Shown piece by piece: positions 14,582 to 37,014 of a stretch of 64,000 nucleotides of DNA. The stretch covers positions 1-64,000 of the forward strand of contig NZ_JSWF01000027.1 in NCBI RefSeq assembly GCF_000797445.1, in the 5' to 3' direction. Within the stretch, counting starts at the first letter, position 1, and every line of letters begins with the position of its first letter. The DNA comes from Lacinutrix jangbogonensis (GTDB lineage Bacteria; Bacteroidota; Bacteroidia; Flavobacteriales; Flavobacteriaceae). A program made the translations under genes and the position numbers. The notes below the pieces were generated by a model. That model saw only the letters and a program-made list of their open reading frames with translations. It was not told the origin of the DNA and made no database searches.

Positions 14582-14737
14582 CTTAAGTGTTTTTAATTAA
14601 TAGTTAGTGCCTACTCTGTTAGGGTTTTTCGGCTTAACACCCTTTTTGCAAATTAAATATCCATTTTTTTTATTGTAGCTGCTTATTTGGGGATCTCCTT
14701 AGCGATAAATATTTCGGAAAAACCAAAACCTAAAACC

Positions 14738-24390: not shown

Positions 24391-25158
24391 TTATGAATTT
24401 AAGATATTATCTACAAACGCTTTTATTTTTTTTGTTCCATTTTTTGATAAGTGTTTTATAAACGCACTCCCAATTATAGCTCCTTTTGCATATTGAGTAG
24501 CCTGGCTAAATGTTTCGTTATCTAAAATTCCAAAACCAACAATTTGCGGGTTTTTTAATGTCATATGTGCAATGCGATTAAAGTAGTTTGTTTGTTCTGA
24601 ACCAAAACCAGAGTTGCCTCCTGTTACGCTTGCACTACTTACCATGTAAATAAAACCGTTAGATATAGAATCGATAAAATTAATGCGTTCTATGCTTGTT
24701 TGTGGAGTGATTAGAAATACATTTATTAATCCGTATTTTTCGAATGTCGCTTTATACTGTTCATTATAAACATTTACTGGTAAATCTGGAATTATTAATC
24801 CGTCGATGCCAATGTCTTGGCATCTTTTACAGAAGGCTTCCACACCATATTGCAGCATAGGATTAAAATAGCCCATAATTATTAATGGAATTGACACCGT
24901 TTTACGAATGTCTTTTAGCTGGTTGAATAGCACTTCGGTTGTCATTCCGTTTTTTAAAGCTTGTGTTGAACTCGCTTGTATTGTTGGACCATCTGCTAAA
25001 GGATCACTAAATGGTAAACCTATTTCAATCATGTCTACACCATTTTCTTCTAGGTTTTCTAGTATTGAAACCGTATCGTTTAAATTGGGATAGCCTGCTG
25101 AAAAATAGATAGAGAGTAGTTTTTTGTCCTCTTGTAATTTTTTGTTTATTCTGTTCAT
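24391..25158 (-). CDS. trpA: Tryptophan synthase alpha chain
   Basis: A 255-residue TIM-barrel subunit that cleaves indole-3-glycerol phosphate to indole, which is channelled to TrpB. Catalytic Glu45 and Asp56 lie in MIEIGLPFSDPLADGPTIQ. The phosphate site is GGNSGFG, with VGFGI nearby. I start at MNRINKKLQE. A longer start three codons upstream lies inside a dispersed repeat arm (25162-25173) and is unlikely. It is the last gene of the trp operon, 139 bp behind trpB, and that gap holds repeat sequence. Confidence 0.95.
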   Translation of the reverse strand: MNRINKKLQEDKKLLSIYFSAGYPNLNDTVSILENLEENGVDMIEIGLPFSDPLADGPTIQASSTQALKNGMTTEVLFNQLKDIRKTVSIPLIIMGYFNPMLQYGVEAFCKRCQDIGIDGLIIPDLPVNVYNEQYKATFEKYGLINVFLITPQTSIERINFIDSISNGFIYMVSSASVTGGNSGFGSEQTNYFNRIAHMTLKNPQIVGFGILDNETFSQATQYAKGAIIGSAFIKHLSKNGTKKIKAFVDNILNS

Positions 25159-25297
25159 ATTTGTCATTCCTGCAAATTGAGGAATCCATTTTTAATTATT
25201 CTTTTTTTTTCTGCGTTAAGGATTGAAAGGTTTGTTTGAGCTCCTCGCAGAGAGCGAGCCTTGAAAGCCTGACCCTTGTGGTAACGCTATAATTATT
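25159..25297. repeat. trpB-trpA spacer with two dispersed repeat motifs
   Basis: The spacer holds TGTCATTCCTGC at 25162-25173, the same 12-bp arm that ends the element at 50244-50341, and copy A of the GCGTTAAGGATTGAA repeat at 25213-25290. Both are described as separate findings. It makes an otherwise tight operon unusually loose between trpB and trpA. Confidence 0.6.
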
Positions 25298-26479
25298 TTA
25301 CAAATCGAAATAATCAATGTAATTCTGTAAATCTTTATCACCACGACCAGACAAATTAATCACGACAATATCATCTTCTTTAAATTTTTTATGATCAAAA
25401 ATAGCTAAAGAGTGTGCTGTTTCAATTGCGGGAATAACACCTTCTAATTGACTTAATTCTAGACCTGCTGTCATAGCTTCATTATCTGTTATCGAAATAA
25501 ATTCAGCACGACCAGTTTTATATAAATGTGCATGCATTGGTCCAACACCAGGATAATCTAAACCTGCAGAAATAGAGTATGGTTCTGTAATTTGTCCGTC
25601 GTCTGTTTGCATGAGTAGTGTTTTACTACCATGTATAATACCTTCTTTTCCTAACACAGAAGTTGCAGCACTTTCACCAGAATGAATACCTTTTCCCGCG
25701 GCTTCCACAGCGATTAGTTTTACGTCTGTATTTTCTAAATAATGATAAAATGCACCAGCTGCATTACTTCCACCACCAACACAAGCAACAATATAATCTG
25801 GAGTAGTTTTTCCTTCTTTTTCTTTTAACTGCCATTGGATTTCTTCTGAAACTACCGATTGAAAACGGGCAACCATATCCGGATAAGGATGAGGTCCAAC
25901 CACACTACCAATAATATAATGTGTGTTTACAGGATTATTAATCCAATCTCTTATGGCTTCGTTTGTTGCATCTTTTAAAGTACGGCTTCCTGATAAAGCT
26001 GGAACGACTTTAGCGCCTAGCATTTTCATTCTAGCAACGTTTGGAGCTTGACGTGCAATATCAATTTCTCCCATGTAAACAATACATTCCATGCCCATGA
26101 GTGCGCAAACGGTTGCAGTTGCTACACCGTGTTGTCCTGCTCCAGTTTCGGCAATAATTCGTTTTTTACCTAAGCGTTGTGCTACTAAAATCTGACCAAT
26201 AGTATTGTTGATTTTATGAGCTCCTGTATGGTTTAAATCTTCGCGTTTTAAATATATTTTTGTATTGTATTTTGCGCTAAGCCTTTTGGCTAAATAGAGA
26301 GGAGAAGGGCGGCCAACGTAATCTTTTAACAATTGATCAAACTCCTCTTTAAAAGACGGTTCTGCCATTATTTTTAGGTAATTCTGTCGTAACTCCTCTA
26401 CATTAGGATAGAGCATTTCTGGAATGTATGCACCTCCAAAGTCTCCATAATAACCTTTGTTGTTAATGTTGTATTTCAT
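25298..26479 (-). CDS. trpB: Tryptophan synthase beta chain
   Basis: A 393-residue PLP enzyme that condenses indole and serine to tryptophan. The PLP lysine is Lys89 in [22 protein letters not shown] and [14 protein letters not shown] bind substrate and PLP phosphate. I use the ATG giving [21 protein letters not shown], the conserved N-terminus, rather than a start ten codons upstream. It is the normal short (TrpB1) type. It follows trpF by about 65 bp. Confidence 0.95.
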
Positions 26480-26544
26480 TTTTATAGTTTTAGTCGGTAA
26501 TGAATTCAATATCTAACACGAGATATTAAATTGCTTTCCTAAAC

Positions 26545-27180
26545 TTATAATATATAATTAGCATCTATTAATTTTTGCTGAAAGGCTTTTAGCTTTGCAG
26601 CGTCTTTTAATCCAGCAGCTGTCTCGAACTTACTATTTAAATCAAAAGTGCAACACAAATCTGATTCTGGTCTTTTTAAGAATAGTAATAGTGACTCCAT
26701 TTCTTTTGGTCCAATTCCACCACTTAAAAAGTAAGGTTTTATAGATGGATATTTTTTTAGAACGTTCCAGTTAAAAGTATAACCGTTTCCACCTGGTTCT
26801 TTGCCTTTGGTATCGAATAAATAATAATCGCAAACCTCTTCAAAAGGATCTAAAACTTTAAAATCGAATTGATTTTTTATAGAAAACACTTTAATAACTG
26901 TAATGTCTAGTGCTTTAAGTCTTTCACATAATTCTGGTGTTTCCTCACCATGAAGTTGTACGCCTTGTAGCTCGTATTTTTCTACTTTACCTCTTATATA
27001 ATCGAATGTAGAATTTACGAAAACACCAATTTTATTAATGTCTGCAGAAATTTCTGGAATAATGCCATTAAAGTAACGTGGTGATTTTTCGAAAAAAATG
27101 AAACCCATATAATCTGGTTTAAGTTCTGCAACATCAAGGATGTTGTTTTCATTTTTCATTCCGCATATTTTTAGTTTCAT
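26545..27180 (-). CDS. trpF: Phosphoribosylanthranilate isomerase
   Basis: A 211-residue TIM barrel that isomerises phosphoribosylanthranilate. The catalytic Cys is in LKICGMKN at the N-terminus and the general acid Asp in YLFDTKGKEPGGNG. LSGGIGPKEM is the phosphate loop. It overlaps trpC by 4 bp, so translation is coupled. Confidence 0.94.
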   Translation of the reverse strand: MKLKICGMKNENNILDVAELKPDYMGFIFFEKSPRYFNGIIPEISADINKIGVFVNSTFDYIRGKVEKYELQGVQLHGEETPELCERLKALDITVIKVFSIKNQFDFKVLDPFEEVCDYYLFDTKGKEPGGNGYTFNWNVLKKYPSIKPYFLSGGIGPKEMESLLLFLKRPESDLCCTFDLNSKFETAAGLKDAAKLKAFQQKLIDANYIL

Positions 27181-27962
27181 AATCTTAAATTTTTTATAAA
27201 TTGTTTTGCGCTTTCTCCAGCATTATCTGTTTTCATAAAGTTCTCACCTATTAAAAATCCTTTGTAACCAAAAGGTTGTAAAGTTTTGATGGCTTCAATA
27301 TTACTAATTCCACTTTCTGATACTTTTATAAAGTCGTTTGGAATTAATGAGCTTAATTGTTTACTAGTTTCTAAACTGACTTCAAACGTTTTTAAATTTC
27401 TATTATTAACACCTAGCATATCTAAACTAGGCATTATGGATTTGTTTAATTCTTTTTCATTATGAACTTCTAGAAGCACCTCTAAATTTAAGCTTTTTGC
27501 AAATTCTGAAAACTGTTTTATTTCCACTTTGGTTAATATACCAGCTATTAGTAGAATAACATCTGCTCCATAAGCTTTGGCTTCCATTATTTGATAATCG
27601 TCTATAATAAACTCTTTACGCAGTAGTGGTAAACTACAGCTAGATCTCGCCGTTAGTAAATCGTCAAGTGAGCCTCCAAAATATTTACCATCTGTTAAAA
27701 CAGACATGCCACAAACTCCAGATTCTTCGTAACCTTTTGCAACATCGAACACGTTTAAATCGTGATTAATAACTTGTTTTGATGGAGATCGTCGTTTGTG
27801 TTCAGCAATAATTCCTGTGGTGCTGGCTCCTAATTTCTTAGCCAAAGAGATCGTTTCTCTTTCAAACAAAATAGACTGCTCTAATTGCTTTGTTGGAATG
27901 AGTTGCTTACGAAGGTTTACTTCGATGCGTTTGTCTCTTGTTATTTTATCTAATATGTTCAT
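27177..27962 (-). CDS. trpC: Indole-3-glycerol phosphate synthase
   Basis: A 261-residue TIM barrel. The conserved substrate-binding motif is AEHKRRSPSKQ, with LRKEFIIDDYQIMEAKAYGADVILL, LEVHNEKEL, GVNNRNLKTF and SESGI following in the usual order. It closes the indole ring in tryptophan synthesis. It is separate from trpF, unlike the enterobacterial fusion, but overlaps it by 4 bp. Confidence 0.95.
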   Translation of the reverse strand: MNILDKITRDKRIEVNLRKQLIPTKQLEQSILFERETISLAKKLGASTTGIIAEHKRRSPSKQVINHDLNVFDVAKGYEESGVCGMSVLTDGKYFGGSLDDLLTARSSCSLPLLRKEFIIDDYQIMEAKAYGADVILLIAGILTKVEIKQFSEFAKSLNLEVLLEVHNEKELNKSIMPSLDMLGVNNRNLKTFEVSLETSKQLSSLIPNDFIKVSESGISNIEAIKTLQPFGYKGFLIGENFMKTDNAGESAKQFIKNLRL

Positions 27963-28080
27963 GTTATATCTTGCCTTCAGTTTAATTGATTCCGTAAGTT
28001 TTCGGAATTGTATCGATAACTTTTTTTGTAGGTTTTCGATTCAATTTTATAGCAGCTCAAAAATCACTAGAAGTGGCGGT

Positions 28081-29076
28081 TTATTTTTTACTCAACTCTA
28101 TTAAGCGTTCTAAACTTTCTTTGGCTCTTCCGCTTTCTAGGCTTTCTTTTGCTAATTGAAATCCGTCTTGGTGCGAAATATTATTTACGGTTGCAATTGC
28201 TAACCCTGCATTCGCACAAACAACATTGTTTTGTGCTTCGGTTCCTTTTCCTTTAATTATGTTTTTAAAAATTTTGGCCGCTTCTTTTATAGAGTGACCT
28301 CCAAAAATTTCTGATTGTTCAATTTGTTTTACGTTTAAGTCTGAGGGTCTTAACATCGTTTCAGAGTTATTAGAAATTATCTTGGTTTCTCCTGTTAAAG
28401 AAATTTCATCATAACCATCTAGCGCGTGAACGATGCTGTAATTTTTATCTGTGTTCTGATAAAGATAACCATATAGTCTTTGTAATTCTAAATTAAAAAC
28501 ACCCACCATTTGGTTTTTTGGAAATGAAGGGTTAACCATTGGCCCGAGCATATTAAAAAAAGTTTTTACACCTAATTCTTTGCGGATAGGAGCAACATTT
28601 TTCATGGCTGGATGAAATAATGGCGCATGTAAAACGCATATTCCAGCTTGATCTATAGATTGCTTTAAAAAGTCTGATTTATTAGAGAAATGAACACCTA
28701 AAGCTTCCATAACGTTTGAAGATCCTGAGGCAGATGAAACACCATAGTTTCCATGTTTTGCTACTTTAACGCCTGCTCCAGCGGTAACAAAAGAAGATAA
28801 GGTAGAAATGTTAAACGTGTCTTTTCCGTCGCCTCCAGTGCCACATAAATCGATAGCATTAAAATCGGATAAATCTATTGCTACACATAACTCTAAGAGT
28901 GCGTCTCGAAAACCTTGAAGCTCTTCTAGTGTAATGCTACGCATCATGAAAACCGTAAGAAATGAAGCGATTTGGTTTTGATTGTATTGCCCTTCAGAAA
29001 TATTAACCAAAACGTTTCTAGCTTCTTTACTGGAGATGTTTTCGTGGTTTATTAACCTGTTTAGTAATTTTTTCAT
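28081..29076 (-). CDS. trpD: Anthranilate phosphoribosyltransferase
   Basis: A 331-residue enzyme that transfers phosphoribose from PRPP to anthranilate. The PRPP site is DLCGTGGDGKDTFNIST, followed by KHGNYGVSSASGSSNVME and PLFHPAMKNVAPIRKELGVKTFFNMLGP, all diagnostic. It is not fused to TrpG. A 118-bp spacer separates it from trpC and a 110-bp spacer from trpG. Confidence 0.95.
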   Translation of the reverse strand: MKKLLNRLINHENISSKEARNVLVNISEGQYNQNQIASFLTVFMMRSITLEELQGFRDALLELCVAIDLSDFNAIDLCGTGGDGKDTFNISTLSSFVTAGAGVKVAKHGNYGVSSASGSSNVMEALGVHFSNKSDFLKQSIDQAGICVLHAPLFHPAMKNVAPIRKELGVKTFFNMLGPMVNPSFPKNQMVGVFNLELQRLYGYLYQNTDKNYSIVHALDGYDEISLTGETKIISNNSETMLRPSDLNVKQIEQSEIFGGHSIKEAAKIFKNIIKGKGTEAQNNVVCANAGLAIATVNNISHQDGFQLAKESLESGRAKESLERLIELSKK

Positions 29077-29186
29077 TTTTATTTCTAATGCTTTCCGAAG
29101 GAAAGATAACTATTATATTAATTTTAATTGTTTATTTTTATTGACTTGTTTGATTGTGATTGTTTACTGCTATCGCAAGTTGAATA

Positions 29187-29750
29187 CTAGCTATTTATCC
29201 AGTTTTCTAAAATCTGTTTTCCATTAGGCGTTAACACACTTTCTGGATGGTATTGTACTCCTTTTACATCGTAAACTCGGTGTCTTAAAGACATTACTTG
29301 TCCATTTTTATCAAAAGATGTGGCTTCCAGTACTTCAGGTAAATCAGCATCTACAACCCAAGAATGGTATCTACCAACTTCTATTGTTTTGTCCATGTTT
29401 TTAAACAAGGCTTCATCATCAACACAAATTTCAATTTTTGTTGCAACACCATGGAAAACGGTTTCTAAATTCACTAAACTTCCCCCAAAAACTTCACCTA
29501 TTGCTTGTTGTCCTAAACAAACTCCAAGAATACTTTTTGTTGGAGCATAGCGTTTAATAATGTCTTTTAATAAACCTGCTTCATCAGGGATTCCTGGTCC
29601 TGGTGATAATACTATTTTATCGTAGGCATCAACTTCTTCTAAAGTTAATTTGTTGTTTCTTTTTACGGTTACTTCACAATTTAAGTCTTCTAGATAATGG
29701 ACTAAGTTGTATGTGAAACTGTCGTAGTTGTCTATTACTAATACTTTCAT
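29187..29750 (-). CDS. trpG: Anthranilate synthase component II (glutamine amidotransferase)
   Basis: A 187-residue class I amidotransferase. The triad is nucleophile Cys78 in GVCLGQQAIGE and His/Glu in VQYHPESV. LSPGPGIPDEAG forms the oxyanion region. It supplies ammonia to TrpE. A paralogue, PabA, could use the same fold, but the position directly after trpE and before trpD makes TrpG the best call. Confidence 0.95.
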   Translation of the reverse strand: MKVLVIDNYDSFTYNLVHYLEDLNCEVTVKRNNKLTLEEVDAYDKIVLSPGPGIPDEAGLLKDIIKRYAPTKSILGVCLGQQAIGEVFGGSLVNLETVFHGVATKIEICVDDEALFKNMDKTIEVGRYHSWVVDADLPEVLEATSFDKNGQVMSLRHRVYDVKGVQYHPESVLTPNGKQILENWINS

Positions 29751-29799
29751 AATATTTGGGTTATTCTCGCAAAACTGAGAATCTTTTTAATTATAGTTT

Positions 29800-31200
29800 C
29801 TAACTTATGTTTTGAGCTAACTCAATCGCTTTTGTAAGTGCTCCTAATTTATTATAAACTTCCTGTAATTCGTTTTCAGGGTTAGATTTTGATACTAAAC
29901 CAGCTCCTGCTTGCCAATGTAATTCGTGGTTTTTACTTAAGAATGTTCTTATCATAATCGCATGATTGTAATTACCTTTAAAGTCCATAAAACCAATAGC
30001 TCCGCCATAAAACGCACGACTCGTTTTCTCGTATTTTTCTATAAGCTGCATCGCTTTATGTTTTGGTGCACCACTTAAAGTTCCTGCAGGAAAAGTGTCA
30101 GCAACCACCTGCATCGTTGGTGTATTATTGTGTACTTTTCCAGTGACCTTACTGACTAAATGAATAACGTGTGAGAAAAATTGTGCTTCTCTATACGTTT
30201 CAACTTTTACTTGGCTTCCATGTCTGCTTAAATCGTTTCTAGCTAAATCTACTAGCATAACATGTTCTGCATTTTCTTTTTCATCTTTAGCTAATTGCTT
30301 TGCTAATTCCGCATCTTTTTCATCGTTTCCTGTACGTTTAAAAGTTCCTGCAATGGGATGAATTTCTGCAATTCCTTCATTGACCACTAATTGTGCTTCA
30401 GGAGAGCTTCCAAAAATTTTAAAATCGCCATAATCAAAATAGAATAAATATGGTGAAGGATTAATGCTTCTTAAAGCGCGATAGACATTAAACTCGTCTC
30501 CTTTAAATTTTTGAGAGAATTTTTTCGAAAGTACTAATTGAAAAACATCACCTCTAGCACAATGGGTTTTTGCTAATGCTACTTGTTCTTTGTATTCATT
30601 ATCTGTTAAATTAGATTCGATTTCGGCGTCTGTAGAAAACTTGTAAGATGCAAAGTTTCTAGATTTTATTAAATGCAATATTTCATCAATATTATCATCA
30701 CCATCATTAAAACAGTGTGCAAAAATGTAAGCTTCATTTTTAAAGTGATTTATGGCAATAATGTTTTGGTAAACAGCGTAATAGATGTCTGGAATATCTA
30801 TAGAATTTGGTTTTTTTGAAATTTTAATATCTTCAAAATATTTTATAGCATCGTAAGAGGTGTAACCAAAAATGCCATTATTTATAAATTTGAAACTCTC
30901 CTTAGAAGTTACTTTGAAGCGTTTTGTGAACTTATGAATCATTTTTGGTACATCTGTAGTCCTATTTCTTAGCTTACTTCCATCTGGAAATGTTTGCTCT
31001 ATAGTGTCTCCCGAAACTTTTATTGAAGCAATAGGATTGAAACAGATGTATGAAAAACTGTTATCATTAGCATGATAATCGCTACTTTCTAACAAGATGC
31101 TATTTGGGAATTTATCGCGAATTTTCAAATAAATACTCACAGGTGTAATAGTATCTGCAAGGATTTTTTTGTAATTAGTGTAAAGGCTAAAAGTCTTCAT
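29800..31200 (-). CDS. trpE: Anthranilate synthase component I
   Basis: A 466-residue chorismate-binding enzyme that makes anthranilate. LLESSDYH near residue 35 is the tryptophan feedback site of TrpE proteins. The catalytic half carries FQLVLSKKF, FGSSPEAQL, HPIAGTFKRTGND, LVDLARNDLSRHG and PAGTLSGAPKHKAM. It is the first structural gene of trpEGDCFBA and lies 76 bp behind an intrinsic terminator in the leader, so its expression should be controlled by attenuation as well as by feedback inhibition. Confidence 0.96.
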   Translation of the reverse strand: MKTFSLYTNYKKILADTITPVSIYLKIRDKFPNSILLESSDYHANDNSFSYICFNPIASIKVSGDTIEQTFPDGSKLRNRTTDVPKMIHKFTKRFKVTSKESFKFINNGIFGYTSYDAIKYFEDIKISKKPNSIDIPDIYYAVYQNIIAINHFKNEAYIFAHCFNDGDDNIDEILHLIKSRNFASYKFSTDAEIESNLTDNEYKEQVALAKTHCARGDVFQLVLSKKFSQKFKGDEFNVYRALRSINPSPYLFYFDYGDFKIFGSSPEAQLVVNEGIAEIHPIAGTFKRTGNDEKDAELAKQLAKDEKENAEHVMLVDLARNDLSRHGSQVKVETYREAQFFSHVIHLVSKVTGKVHNNTPTMQVVADTFPAGTLSGAPKHKAMQLIEKYEKTSRAFYGGAIGFMDFKGNYNHAIMIRTFLSKNHELHWQAGAGLVSKSNPENELQEVYNKLGALTKAIELAQNIS

Positions 31201-31276
31201 TTATGCTGAATTTATTTCAGTATCTCAATGCAATGAGATGTTATGTTTGTTTAGGATTCTGAAACAAGTTCAGAAT

Positions 31277-31311
31277 AAAAAAAAAGGCTTGTCGTGAATG
31301 ACAAGCCTTTT
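31277..31311 (-). terminator. trp leader attenuator (intrinsic terminator)
   Basis: Perfect 12-bp stem AAAAGGCTTGTC/GACAAGCCTTTT (31282-31293 with 31300-31311) and, on the transcribed minus strand, a run of nine U (31277-31285). It lies between the leader peptide and trpE. Its loop, 31292-31299, is complementary over 8 bp to 31342-31349 in the leader peptide frame, which can form a competing antiterminator. Confidence 0.85.
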
Positions 31312-31339
31312 GTATGTTTGGTTAAATATACGTAAGAGT

Positions 31340-31399
31340 TTATTCACGAATTGAATTTCGGGAAGTCCACCACCATGTATGATTTAAATTTGTGTTCAT
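31340..31399 (-). CDS. trpL: trp operon leader peptide
   Basis: A 19-residue open frame with ATG and TAA: MNTNLNHTWWWTSRNSIRE. It has three adjacent Trp codons (31367-31375) although Trp is a rare residue. It begins about 10 nt after the predicted transcription start and ends 28 nt before the attenuator stem. The family logic is that of trp leader peptides: ribosomes stalled at the Trp codons when charged tRNA-Trp is scarce leave the downstream segment free to pair with the terminator loop. It is too short for ordinary gene finding. Confidence 0.85.
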   Translation of the reverse strand: MNTNLNHTWWWTSRNSIRE

Positions 31400-31414
31400 A
31401 TTAATTTTAAAATC

Positions 31415-31445
31415 CAAATATATAAATTGAATGTTAACTTTCAAA
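31415..31445 (-). promoter_or_regulatory. trp operon promoter
   Basis: Read on the minus strand, TTTG (31445-31442) and TATATTTG (31422-31415) are exactly 19 bp apart, a perfect match to the Bacteroidota housekeeping promoter. Transcription would start close to 31408, just before the leader peptide. It is divergent from the thioredoxin-like gene at 31511. Confidence 0.75.
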
Positions 31446-31510
31446 TTATTTTTAATGTAAATATTTGTTAAAAGAGGTTTGTGTAAGGATTTCTGTATTA
31501 TTTTTATAAA

Positions 31511-32044
31511 ATGAAGGTGTATGTTTTACTATTAGTTATTTTGTTTTCTGCATGTAAACAAGAAGAAGTTCAAAAATTAGATGCTGATCCGGTTGTAGTA
31601 ATTGAGAAAAGTAATGCTAAAGATATAGATTTAACGGTTTATAATTTTAATGAACTTGAGCCGCTATTAAATAAGAAAGACGGTAAAGTATATGTTATAA
31701 ATTTTTGGGCAACTTGGTGCGCACCTTGTGTTAAAGAATTACCGTATTTTGAGACTCTAAATGAAGAGTATAAAAATATAAATGTAGATGTCGTTTTAGT
31801 GAGTTTAGATTTCCCTAAACAATACGATACTAAACTGAAACCTTTTATAACTAAGCATAAACTAAAATCTAGAATTGTAGTTTTAAACGATGTCGATAGT
31901 AATACATGGATTCCTAAAGTTGATAAAGATTGGACTGGAGCTATTCCTGCTACAATAATATATAACAATAGTAAGAGAACGTTTTATGAAAAATCGTTTA
32001 ACTTAGAAGAGTTAAAACTAGAAGTTAATAAATTTATTGAATAG
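31511..32044 (+). CDS. TlpA-like thioredoxin-fold lipoprotein
   Basis: A 177-residue lipoprotein (lipobox LFSAC, Cys15). Residues 55-175 are a thioredoxin-fold domain of the TlpA/ResA type with active site WATWCAPC and the cis-Pro region GAIPATIIYN. It probably reduces or exchanges disulfides at the periplasmic side of the membrane. Another redox protein follows 160 bp downstream. Confidence 0.87.
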   Translation: MKVYVLLLVILFSACKQEEVQKLDADPVVVIEKSNAKDIDLTVYNFNELEPLLNKKDGKVYVINFWATWCAPCVKELPYFETLNEEYKNINVDVVLVSLDFPKQYDTKLKPFITKHKLKSRIVVLNDVDSNTWIPKVDKDWTGAIPATIIYNNSKRTFYEKSFNLEELKLEVNKFIE

Positions 32045-36586: not shown

Positions 36587-36620
36587 AAAAAACCCTCGTA
36601 ATCTATTGATTATGAGGGTT
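36587..36620 (-). terminator. Intrinsic terminator of the tmRNA gene
   Basis: A 13-bp stem (36591-36603 with 36608-36620, one G-T pair) and a 4-nt loop, followed on the minus strand by six U. It starts 3 bp beyond the mature 3' end of the tmRNA. Confidence 0.85.
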
Positions 36621-36622
36621 TG

Positions 36623-37014
36623 TGGAGTCGGAGAGAATCGAACTCTCGTCCAAACAAGTAAGAAAGTAGCTTTCTACACGTTTATTTTCTTCTTAGTTTT
36701 TCGAGTTTAAGCTGGTTAGAAAAAACCCACTTTAACCTTATCTTCTTAATCTCGAAAAGGCAACAAAGCAGTACCTAATCTAAGTTAATATTTACGATGT
36801 CTTAAATAGAACGCCATTAACTAAGGCTTTCTGGAGACATAAAGCTTGCTCACCTAGTGAGCCGAGGCTTAATCCTACTATAATTCGGATTAGGCAGCTA
36901 AAGCGTAGTTATTCTCGCCGTTTAAAAAGTTGACTTAGCCTTTTACGTGTTTCAAAATCATTACACGACGTGCTTACTAGTTAATTAATCTCGCTGTCAA
37001 AACCAGTCGACCCC
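36623..37014 (-). ncRNA. ssrA: Transfer-messenger RNA (tmRNA)
   Basis: About 392 nt. The 5' end GGGGTCGACTGGTTTTGACAG and the 3' TpsiC arm GAGAGTTCGATTCTC are diagnostic. GGGGUCG pairs with CGACUCC to form the acceptor stem, discriminator A at 36623. The tag frame at 36890-36919 encodes GENNYALAA and TAA, with resume codon GGC, the typical Bacteroidota tag. The bases after the discriminator read CAA, so the CCA end is not encoded and must be added. It rescues stalled ribosomes with SmpB. Confidence 0.95.

Follow-up and report, generated by a model that had tools for sequence, protein, structure and literature searches.

A trp attenuator in Lacinutrix jangbogonensis with a predicted antiterminator directed at the terminator loop and 3′ shoulder

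The leader upstream of trpE in Lacinutrix jangbogonensis is very probably a ribosome-sensed transcription attenuator in which, as sequence comparison and modeling indicate, a short segment behind the Trp codons (A) base-pairs with the loop of the terminator plus the start of its 3′ arm (together B) and so antiterminates trp transcription. The leader lies on the minus strand of the stretch of 64,000 nucleotides analysed here (the window). The first-pass annotation had described a promoter, a 19-codon leader frame with three consecutive Trp codons, a 12-bp terminator and trpE in this place, and direct reading of the sequence confirmed each of them. The parts are as follows, in window positions.

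31415–31445, minus strand: promoter TTTG-N19-TATATTTG, which we take to be of the Bacteroidota type; −33 box 31445–31442, −7 box 31422–31415 (sequence and relatives)
31340–31399, minus strand: leader peptide frame MNTNLNHTWWWTSRNSIRE, 19 codons, stop codon TAA at 31342–31340 (sequence)
31367–31375, minus strand: three Trp codons (WWW), the putative stall site (sequence)
31355–31366, minus strand: segment 1, predicted main partner of A when the ribosome is absent (pairing-partner profile of 79 close relatives and 106 class leaders)
31342–31349, minus strand: segment 2 (A), TCGTGAAT, candidate antiterminator strand, extending into the leader stop codon (comparison, modeling, shuffles)
31292–31299, minus strand: segment 3 (B), ATTCACGA, terminator loop and first two bases of the 3′ arm (comparison, shuffles)
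31282–31311, minus strand: intrinsic terminator hairpin, 12 bp, 5′ arm 31311–31300 and 3′ arm 31293–31282 (fold and terminator scan)
31299–31294, minus strand: terminator loop ATTCAC, 6 nt (sequence)
31277–31285, minus strand: nine-U run, four U inside the stem (sequence)
31300–31419, minus strand: match to RF01692 (Bacteroid-trp), 56 bits against a gathering threshold of 49, over the full model length
24391–31200, minus strand: operon trpE-trpG-trpD-trpC-trpF-trpB-trpA, trpE ATG at 31200 (open reading frames and NCBIfam)

The leader thus combines what defines a classic peptide-leader attenuator, namely regulatory codons, an intrinsic terminator and a biosynthetic operon downstream, and, as a Trp-rich leader peptide upstream of trp genes, it also answers to the description of RF01692. 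NCBIfam cut-offs were exceeded for trpD, trpC, trpB, trpA and the TrpG/PabA subfamily model; TrpE and TrpF are the best NCBIfam matches of their frames, yet fall under the curated cut-offs. Among the matches listed, the nearest named TrpE records are from Lacinutrix, at 93% identity. A terminator scan of 31150–31560 returned one hairpin, listed on either strand, with 0.0 expected, and a U run lies 3′ of it on the minus strand only. This terminator had been credited with nine U; all nine are present, but four are already paired in the 12-bp stem, leaving a free U-tract of five and a G+C-bearing core stem of 8 bp. The pattern TTG-N18-22-TAnnTTTG stands 5′ of the leader ATG in 69 of the 75 relatives with an ATG start and occurs in 0.3% of letter-shuffled stretches. 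A scan for sigma-70-type promoters was uninformative (1 site, 2.6 expected).

Several other features surround the leader. Short hairpins lie between the terminator and the trpE start, at 31257–31275 and 31206–31239 (TTCTGAA-CTTG-TTTCAGAA and others), and stretches resembling CTGAAATAAATTCAG are also present 5′ of trpE in several relatives. The palindrome TTCTGAA-CTTG-TTTCAGAA was considered as a possible dispersed repeat and set aside: a 5-nt gap gave no match, and a 3–6-nt gap gave 4 distinct places against 1 for the control. A thioredoxin-like (ResA-like) gene at 31511–32044 is divergent from the leader. Farther away, the window holds a tmRNA gene (36620–37014) preceded on its own strand, at a distance of 127 nt, by a Flavo-1 RNA (RF01705; 37142–37218), and a DUF805b RNA (RF02914) at 14608–14643 on the minus strand.

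Over 8 bp, A (TCGTGAAT, 31349–31342) is the exact reverse complement of B (ATTCACGA, 31299–31292). It had been put forward as the complement of the terminator loop; the exact match stands, with the correction that B also takes in the first two bases of the 3′ arm. After shuffling of the 55-nt spacer with dinucleotides kept, any Watson–Crick 8-bp helix with the hairpin appeared in 307 of 50,000 shuffles, and an 8-bp helix spanning the whole loop in 122 of the 50,000. One of 93 hairpins from other families in the class set equalled the window leader's own pairing. A chance match in the window is unlikely, though not extremely so, and the comparative evidence is stronger. A genome-wide search for the A-spacer-B pattern gave 1 match, at the trp leader, and 2 matches to the reversed control pattern, and is uninformative.

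Close relatives were represented by the window and the best 80 of at least 585 TrpE loci, all from Flavobacteriaceae or titled only Flavobacteriales. A WWW or WWC run with a terminator was found in 79 of these 81 sequences, and these 79 were analysed. One locus (L057) was dropped because no Trp run with a terminator was found ahead of trpE; another (L062) is cut off by its contig end, which leaves A and the loop visible but removes the Trp codons. In all 79, the GTGA core of A is found 19–24 nt past the last Trp codon and TCACGA spans the loop and 3′ arm; 74 of them have TCGTGA. The best helix with the hairpin passes through A in 76. GTGA sits in codon register in 38 leaders; in another 38 it is offset by two nucleotides, and in 3 by one. 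The stop codon falls anywhere from 14 nt before to 6 nt after GTGA; in 6 of the 79 it precedes GTGA by 8–14 nt, so A is untranslated. Since A is kept in three frames and sometimes past the stop codon, the constraint lies on nucleotides rather than on the peptide, and pairing can explain it. The terminator stem, GGCTTGTC/GACAAGCC, is identical in 68 of the 79. The five leaders that lack TCGTGA have TTAGTGA (three) or CTGTGA (two) with an unchanged loop, and therefore no covariation is seen within the 79. Covariation among related genera had been proposed as the check on the pairing. Because A and B hardly vary inside Flavobacteriaceae, related genera alone could not have shown it; the check succeeds across the class, but within the family it yields nothing and the few changes are uncompensated.

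The class-wide set came from a TrpE search of 395 class genomes, 123 of which have a clear TrpE. One of these is the window (G000), two with trpE at a contig edge (G005, G036) were left out, and 121 upstream regions from 120 genomes were obtained. A short frame with at least two Trp among three codons, together with a terminator, was present at 107 of the 121 trpE loci; the opposite strand of these regions gave 4 of 121. One of the 107 (L177) was judged a chance WxW frame and dropped, leaving 106; the terminator of another (L129) was re-picked by hand. Among the 14 loci without leader and terminator, two (L115, L116) have trpE at the contig end, four (L123, L162, L168, L180) have a WW/WWW frame and no recognised terminator, and eight have neither.

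For each of the 106 leaders, pairing was taken as the best ungapped helix between the post-Trp stretch and the terminator hairpin. Mean helix energy was −12.8 kcal/mol with the leader's own hairpin and −9.2 kcal/mol with foreign hairpins from other families. When each family label contributed a single leader (30 labels, of which one is a second trpE copy; mean of 200 draws), the value was −13.08 against −9.75 (sd 0.49) for permuted hairpins; the best of 10,000 permutations gave −11.81, and none reached −13.08. A and B change in concert, from GTCGTGA/TCACGAC in the window's family (f1) to GTCGTAAG/CTTGCGAC (f57), AACGTGA/TCACGTT (f34) and GTGAACAGC/GCTGTTCAT (f42). These sequence comparisons support A:B covariation across the class on average; many single leaders are weak. 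The own hairpin ranks within the best 10% of foreign ones in only 58 of 106 leaders, pairing is unconvincing in L104, L105, L113, L125 and L134 among others, and neither leader of another family of the same order (f2) pairs convincingly. Shuffling the spacer of single leaders gave p ≤ 0.05 in 23 of 47 and was too weak alone, hence the use of the class-wide own-versus-foreign test. One genome (G011) has a second trpE copy (L139) whose leader resembles those of family f42 (MKKQFVNNSWWWFSTKVVNG), a case of horizontal transfer or contamination.

The distance between A and the Trp codons is also retained. A starts 17 nt past the last Trp codon in the window, and a start at 14–22 nt was found in 90 of 106 own pairings compared with 255 of 530 foreign ones. 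To follow the ribosome, a footprint was imposed that ends 12 nt downstream of the first nucleotide in the A-site codon, and the probability of A:B was calculated with B exposed. In the 79 close relatives the modeled medians were 0.12 with no ribosome, 0.94 with a stalled ribosome and 0.00 with a ribosome at the stop codon; in the 106 class leaders they were 0.00, 0.96 and 0.00. A probability above 0.5 in the stalled state was reached by 89% of the 106 own hairpins and by 36% of the 530 foreign ones. The comparison and the model therefore support the earlier proposal that stalling at the Trp codons frees A for pairing with the loop. Its counterpart, that a ribosome at the stop codon covers A, likewise agrees with the model, where the value of 0.00 largely follows from the imposed footprint.

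When no ribosome is present, the main predicted partner of A is a stretch of about 12 nt directly past the last Trp codon, segment 1, most of which a stalled ribosome covers. Segment 1 sequesters A in the 79 relatives, with A paired 0.77 on average, as in a classic attenuator. The design had been described as unlike the classic 1:2/2:3/3:4 fold. That description holds for the shifted register of segment 3 but not for the logic, which is classic because segment 1 exists. The lock by segment 1 is weak in some leaders: in 32% of the 79, A:B has a probability above 0.5 with no ribosome present. It is also weak in the window, where A:B reaches P 0.88 in the ribosome-free state; A is unpaired with a probability of 0.22 before the terminator is made, and at equilibrium B outcompetes segment 1. 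The minimum-energy fold of the full-length window leader contains the terminator and not A:B. The model therefore needs kinetics, and timing must decide.

We propose that the switch would operate as follows. When charged tRNA-Trp is low, the ribosome would stall on the three Trp codons, cover most of segment 1 and leave A free, and A would pair with B as B leaves the polymerase. The A:B helix would occupy the loop and the loop-closing pair, the very site where the terminator hairpin would nucleate, and would topologically block the remaining stem, so that the polymerase would read on into trpE. Since B is directly continuous with the remainder of the 3′ arm, we infer that the lower stem could hardly close across the 8-bp helix. 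At high Trp the ribosome would reach the stop codon and cover A, and the terminator would form. If the leader is not translated, segment 1 would hold A in most relatives. We infer the block to nucleation, and the operation of the switch in cells, from the conserved parts and the modeled pairing.

Segment 2 of a classic attenuator pairs with the 5′ arm of the terminator; in the window its target is the loop and 3′ arm. Across the class, the side of B was assigned from the best helix, as 5′ for the arm or the arm and loop and as 3′ for the loop and shoulder, or rarely the shoulder alone. The window's family (f1) is on the 3′ side in 11 of 13 class-set leaders, and f33, f57 and f78 are so in 8 of 8, some of them weak. 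The 5′ arm is used in 5 of 6 leaders of f36, the 5′ arm or 5′ arm and loop in 11 of 13 of f41, and the 5′ arm and loop in 5 of 6 of f42. The loop and 3′ shoulder register thus recurs in other Bacteroidia families and is not peculiar to this genome. On a FastTree phylogeny of TrpE for 82 leaders with a majority side (5′ in 46, 3′ in 36) and an own hairpin ranked within the best 20%, 12 side changes were needed, against a mean of 27.2 and a minimum of 20 in 300 label shuffles. At other cut-offs the tree needed 10 changes for 56 leaders (shuffled mean 18.6, minimum 13) and 17 changes for 101 leaders (shuffled mean 33.9, minimum 26). The side counts on the tree omit leaders with weak pairing or no majority side, and also locus L093, where the wrong frame had been taken as TrpE. 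The side of B thus appears to be inherited and to have switched repeatedly, on a quick tree whose deep joins are unsure. The pattern suggests that the spot grabbed by A has slid along the hairpin during evolution.

The leaders of his operons provide a comparison. From 23 match rows, 19 were used and fragments were left out; all 19 hisG loci (L299–L317), many of them from one genus and hence not independent, have a leader peptide with a His run and a terminator. In 18 of the 19 the best antiterminator helix involves the 5′ side of the terminator, and the own hairpin is in the best 20% relative to the 106 trp hairpins in 12. The his leader of the L. jangbogonensis genome itself (L308) ranks 0.07 against the trp hairpins. 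With its his leader on the 5′ side and its trp leader on the 3′ side, this one genome apparently holds both registers. Divergent from that his leader is a gene with a WCGWC motif (L308, 2309–2824), presumably thioredoxin-like. At ilvD, leader candidates of mixed quality were found at 8 of 18 loci and were left out of the comparison. For trp in Bacteroidia as a whole, we lean towards a general reading in which A keeps about 14–22 nt from the Trp codons and its target slides (5′ arm, 5′ arm and loop, loop, loop and 3′ shoulder), with about a dozen side switches and both registers in one genome (his 5′, trp 3′). In that reading the Flavobacteriaceae form would block hairpin nucleation through the loop and closing pair instead of competing for the 5′ arm.

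An attenuator of this kind is not new, as the leader belongs to the named Rfam family RF01692, which likewise places a Trp leader peptide 5′ of Bacteroidota trp genes. The family model differs in that it extends no further than the terminator's 5′ arm and lacks the A:B antiterminator. It was found in 15 of 295 class genomes, a count from which strict filters lose weak matches and in which genomes without trpE are included; the 107 of 121 trpE loci of the structural search are a different set. A hairpin similar to the RF01692 consensus hairpin around the Trp codons occurs in the minimum-energy fold of the window leader. The RNAalifold consensus of the 79 aligned leaders contains the terminator alone, and we therefore make no claim that the Rfam hairpin is conserved in close relatives.

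The E. coli trp attenuator (RF00513) follows the 1:2/2:3/3:4 logic, and its textbook arrangement has A pairing with the 5′ arm of the terminator. Our control run reproduced this arrangement, placing A at +14 and assigning B to the 5′ arm. The two leaders share a Trp leader peptide and a similar position of A (14 nt past the last Trp codon in E. coli, 17 nt in the window), and differ in that the best helix involves the 5′ arm in E. coli and the loop and 3′ shoulder in the window. The RF00513 model scored 19.6 bits on the window leader, under its gathering threshold of 41. A comparative study of attenuation by Lopatovskaya et al. in 2010 reportedly exists and may cover Bacteroidetes. The source paper of RF01692 marks it as a cis-regulatory RNA and not a riboswitch (PMC2864571). 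According to a 2010 survey, leader-peptide systems had been shown, before its own Firmicutes case, only in Proteobacteria and Actinobacteria (PMC2965389). The closest parallel in register is the uORF attenuator of Corynebacterium ilvB-II, a leader-peptide system whose antiterminator strand targets the right (3′) terminator shoulder; it belongs to another phylum, responds to other amino acids and uses the lower-stem shoulder, not the loop and top (PMC10272879). For the fhsA motif, it was suggested that the terminator stem-loop may form a pseudoknot with the hairpin ahead of it and that this could prevent termination; the motif is listed as a weak riboswitch candidate, and the text on it mentions no leader peptide (PMC11109978). 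A search of the open-access literature returned neither a description of an antiterminator in Bacteroidota trp leaders nor one of a sliding register. Already established are the family and the mechanism in general; the loop and 3′ shoulder register for Bacteroidota, and the sliding of the register, were not found described in that literature.

Other explanations of the A:B match fit less of this evidence. The leader could simply be an RF01692 member that works through the Rfam hairpin and terminator, the match of A to the loop being a by-product of conserved sequence, as the Rfam match itself and the near-invariant, uncompensated A and B of the 79 close relatives would allow. Own hairpins nevertheless covary with their leaders across the 30 family labels, A persists in three frames and in 6 of 79 leaders lies wholly past the stop codon, and the Rfam hairpin is missing from the consensus fold, so we hold this explanation to be very unlikely. 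It is less likely still that A:B, as a kissing or pseudoknot contact, serves to stabilise the terminator or to pause the polymerase and does not block termination. The prediction of A:B in the window without a ribosome would suit such a contact, and partial coexistence with the lower stem is conceivable with B mostly in the loop. Against it, the distance from A to the Trp codons is what a stalled ribosome leaves free, and in other families A, equally far from the Trp codons, targets the 5′ arm, a pairing that must block the stem. We give almost no credence to binding of a protein or small RNA to the conserved terminator sequence. The identity of the stem in 68 of 79 relatives, which we judge unusual for an intrinsic terminator, could point that way, but in other families the stem varies and A tracks it. 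The single genomic site of the A-spacer-B pattern also speaks against such binding, a weak point in view of the two matches of the reversed control.

With the attenuator reading, RF01692, for which no mechanism was found in the open-access literature, gains a full switch model that can be tested. The RF01692 model itself could be extended, and leaders found by structure look more widespread than its matches. The findings point to leader-peptide control of trp at most of the sampled Bacteroidia trpE loci (107 of 121). They suggest how an attenuator may change the part of the terminator that it attacks while the geometry of the ribosome stays the same, and they offer a clean way to ask whether blocking the loop suffices against an intrinsic terminator.
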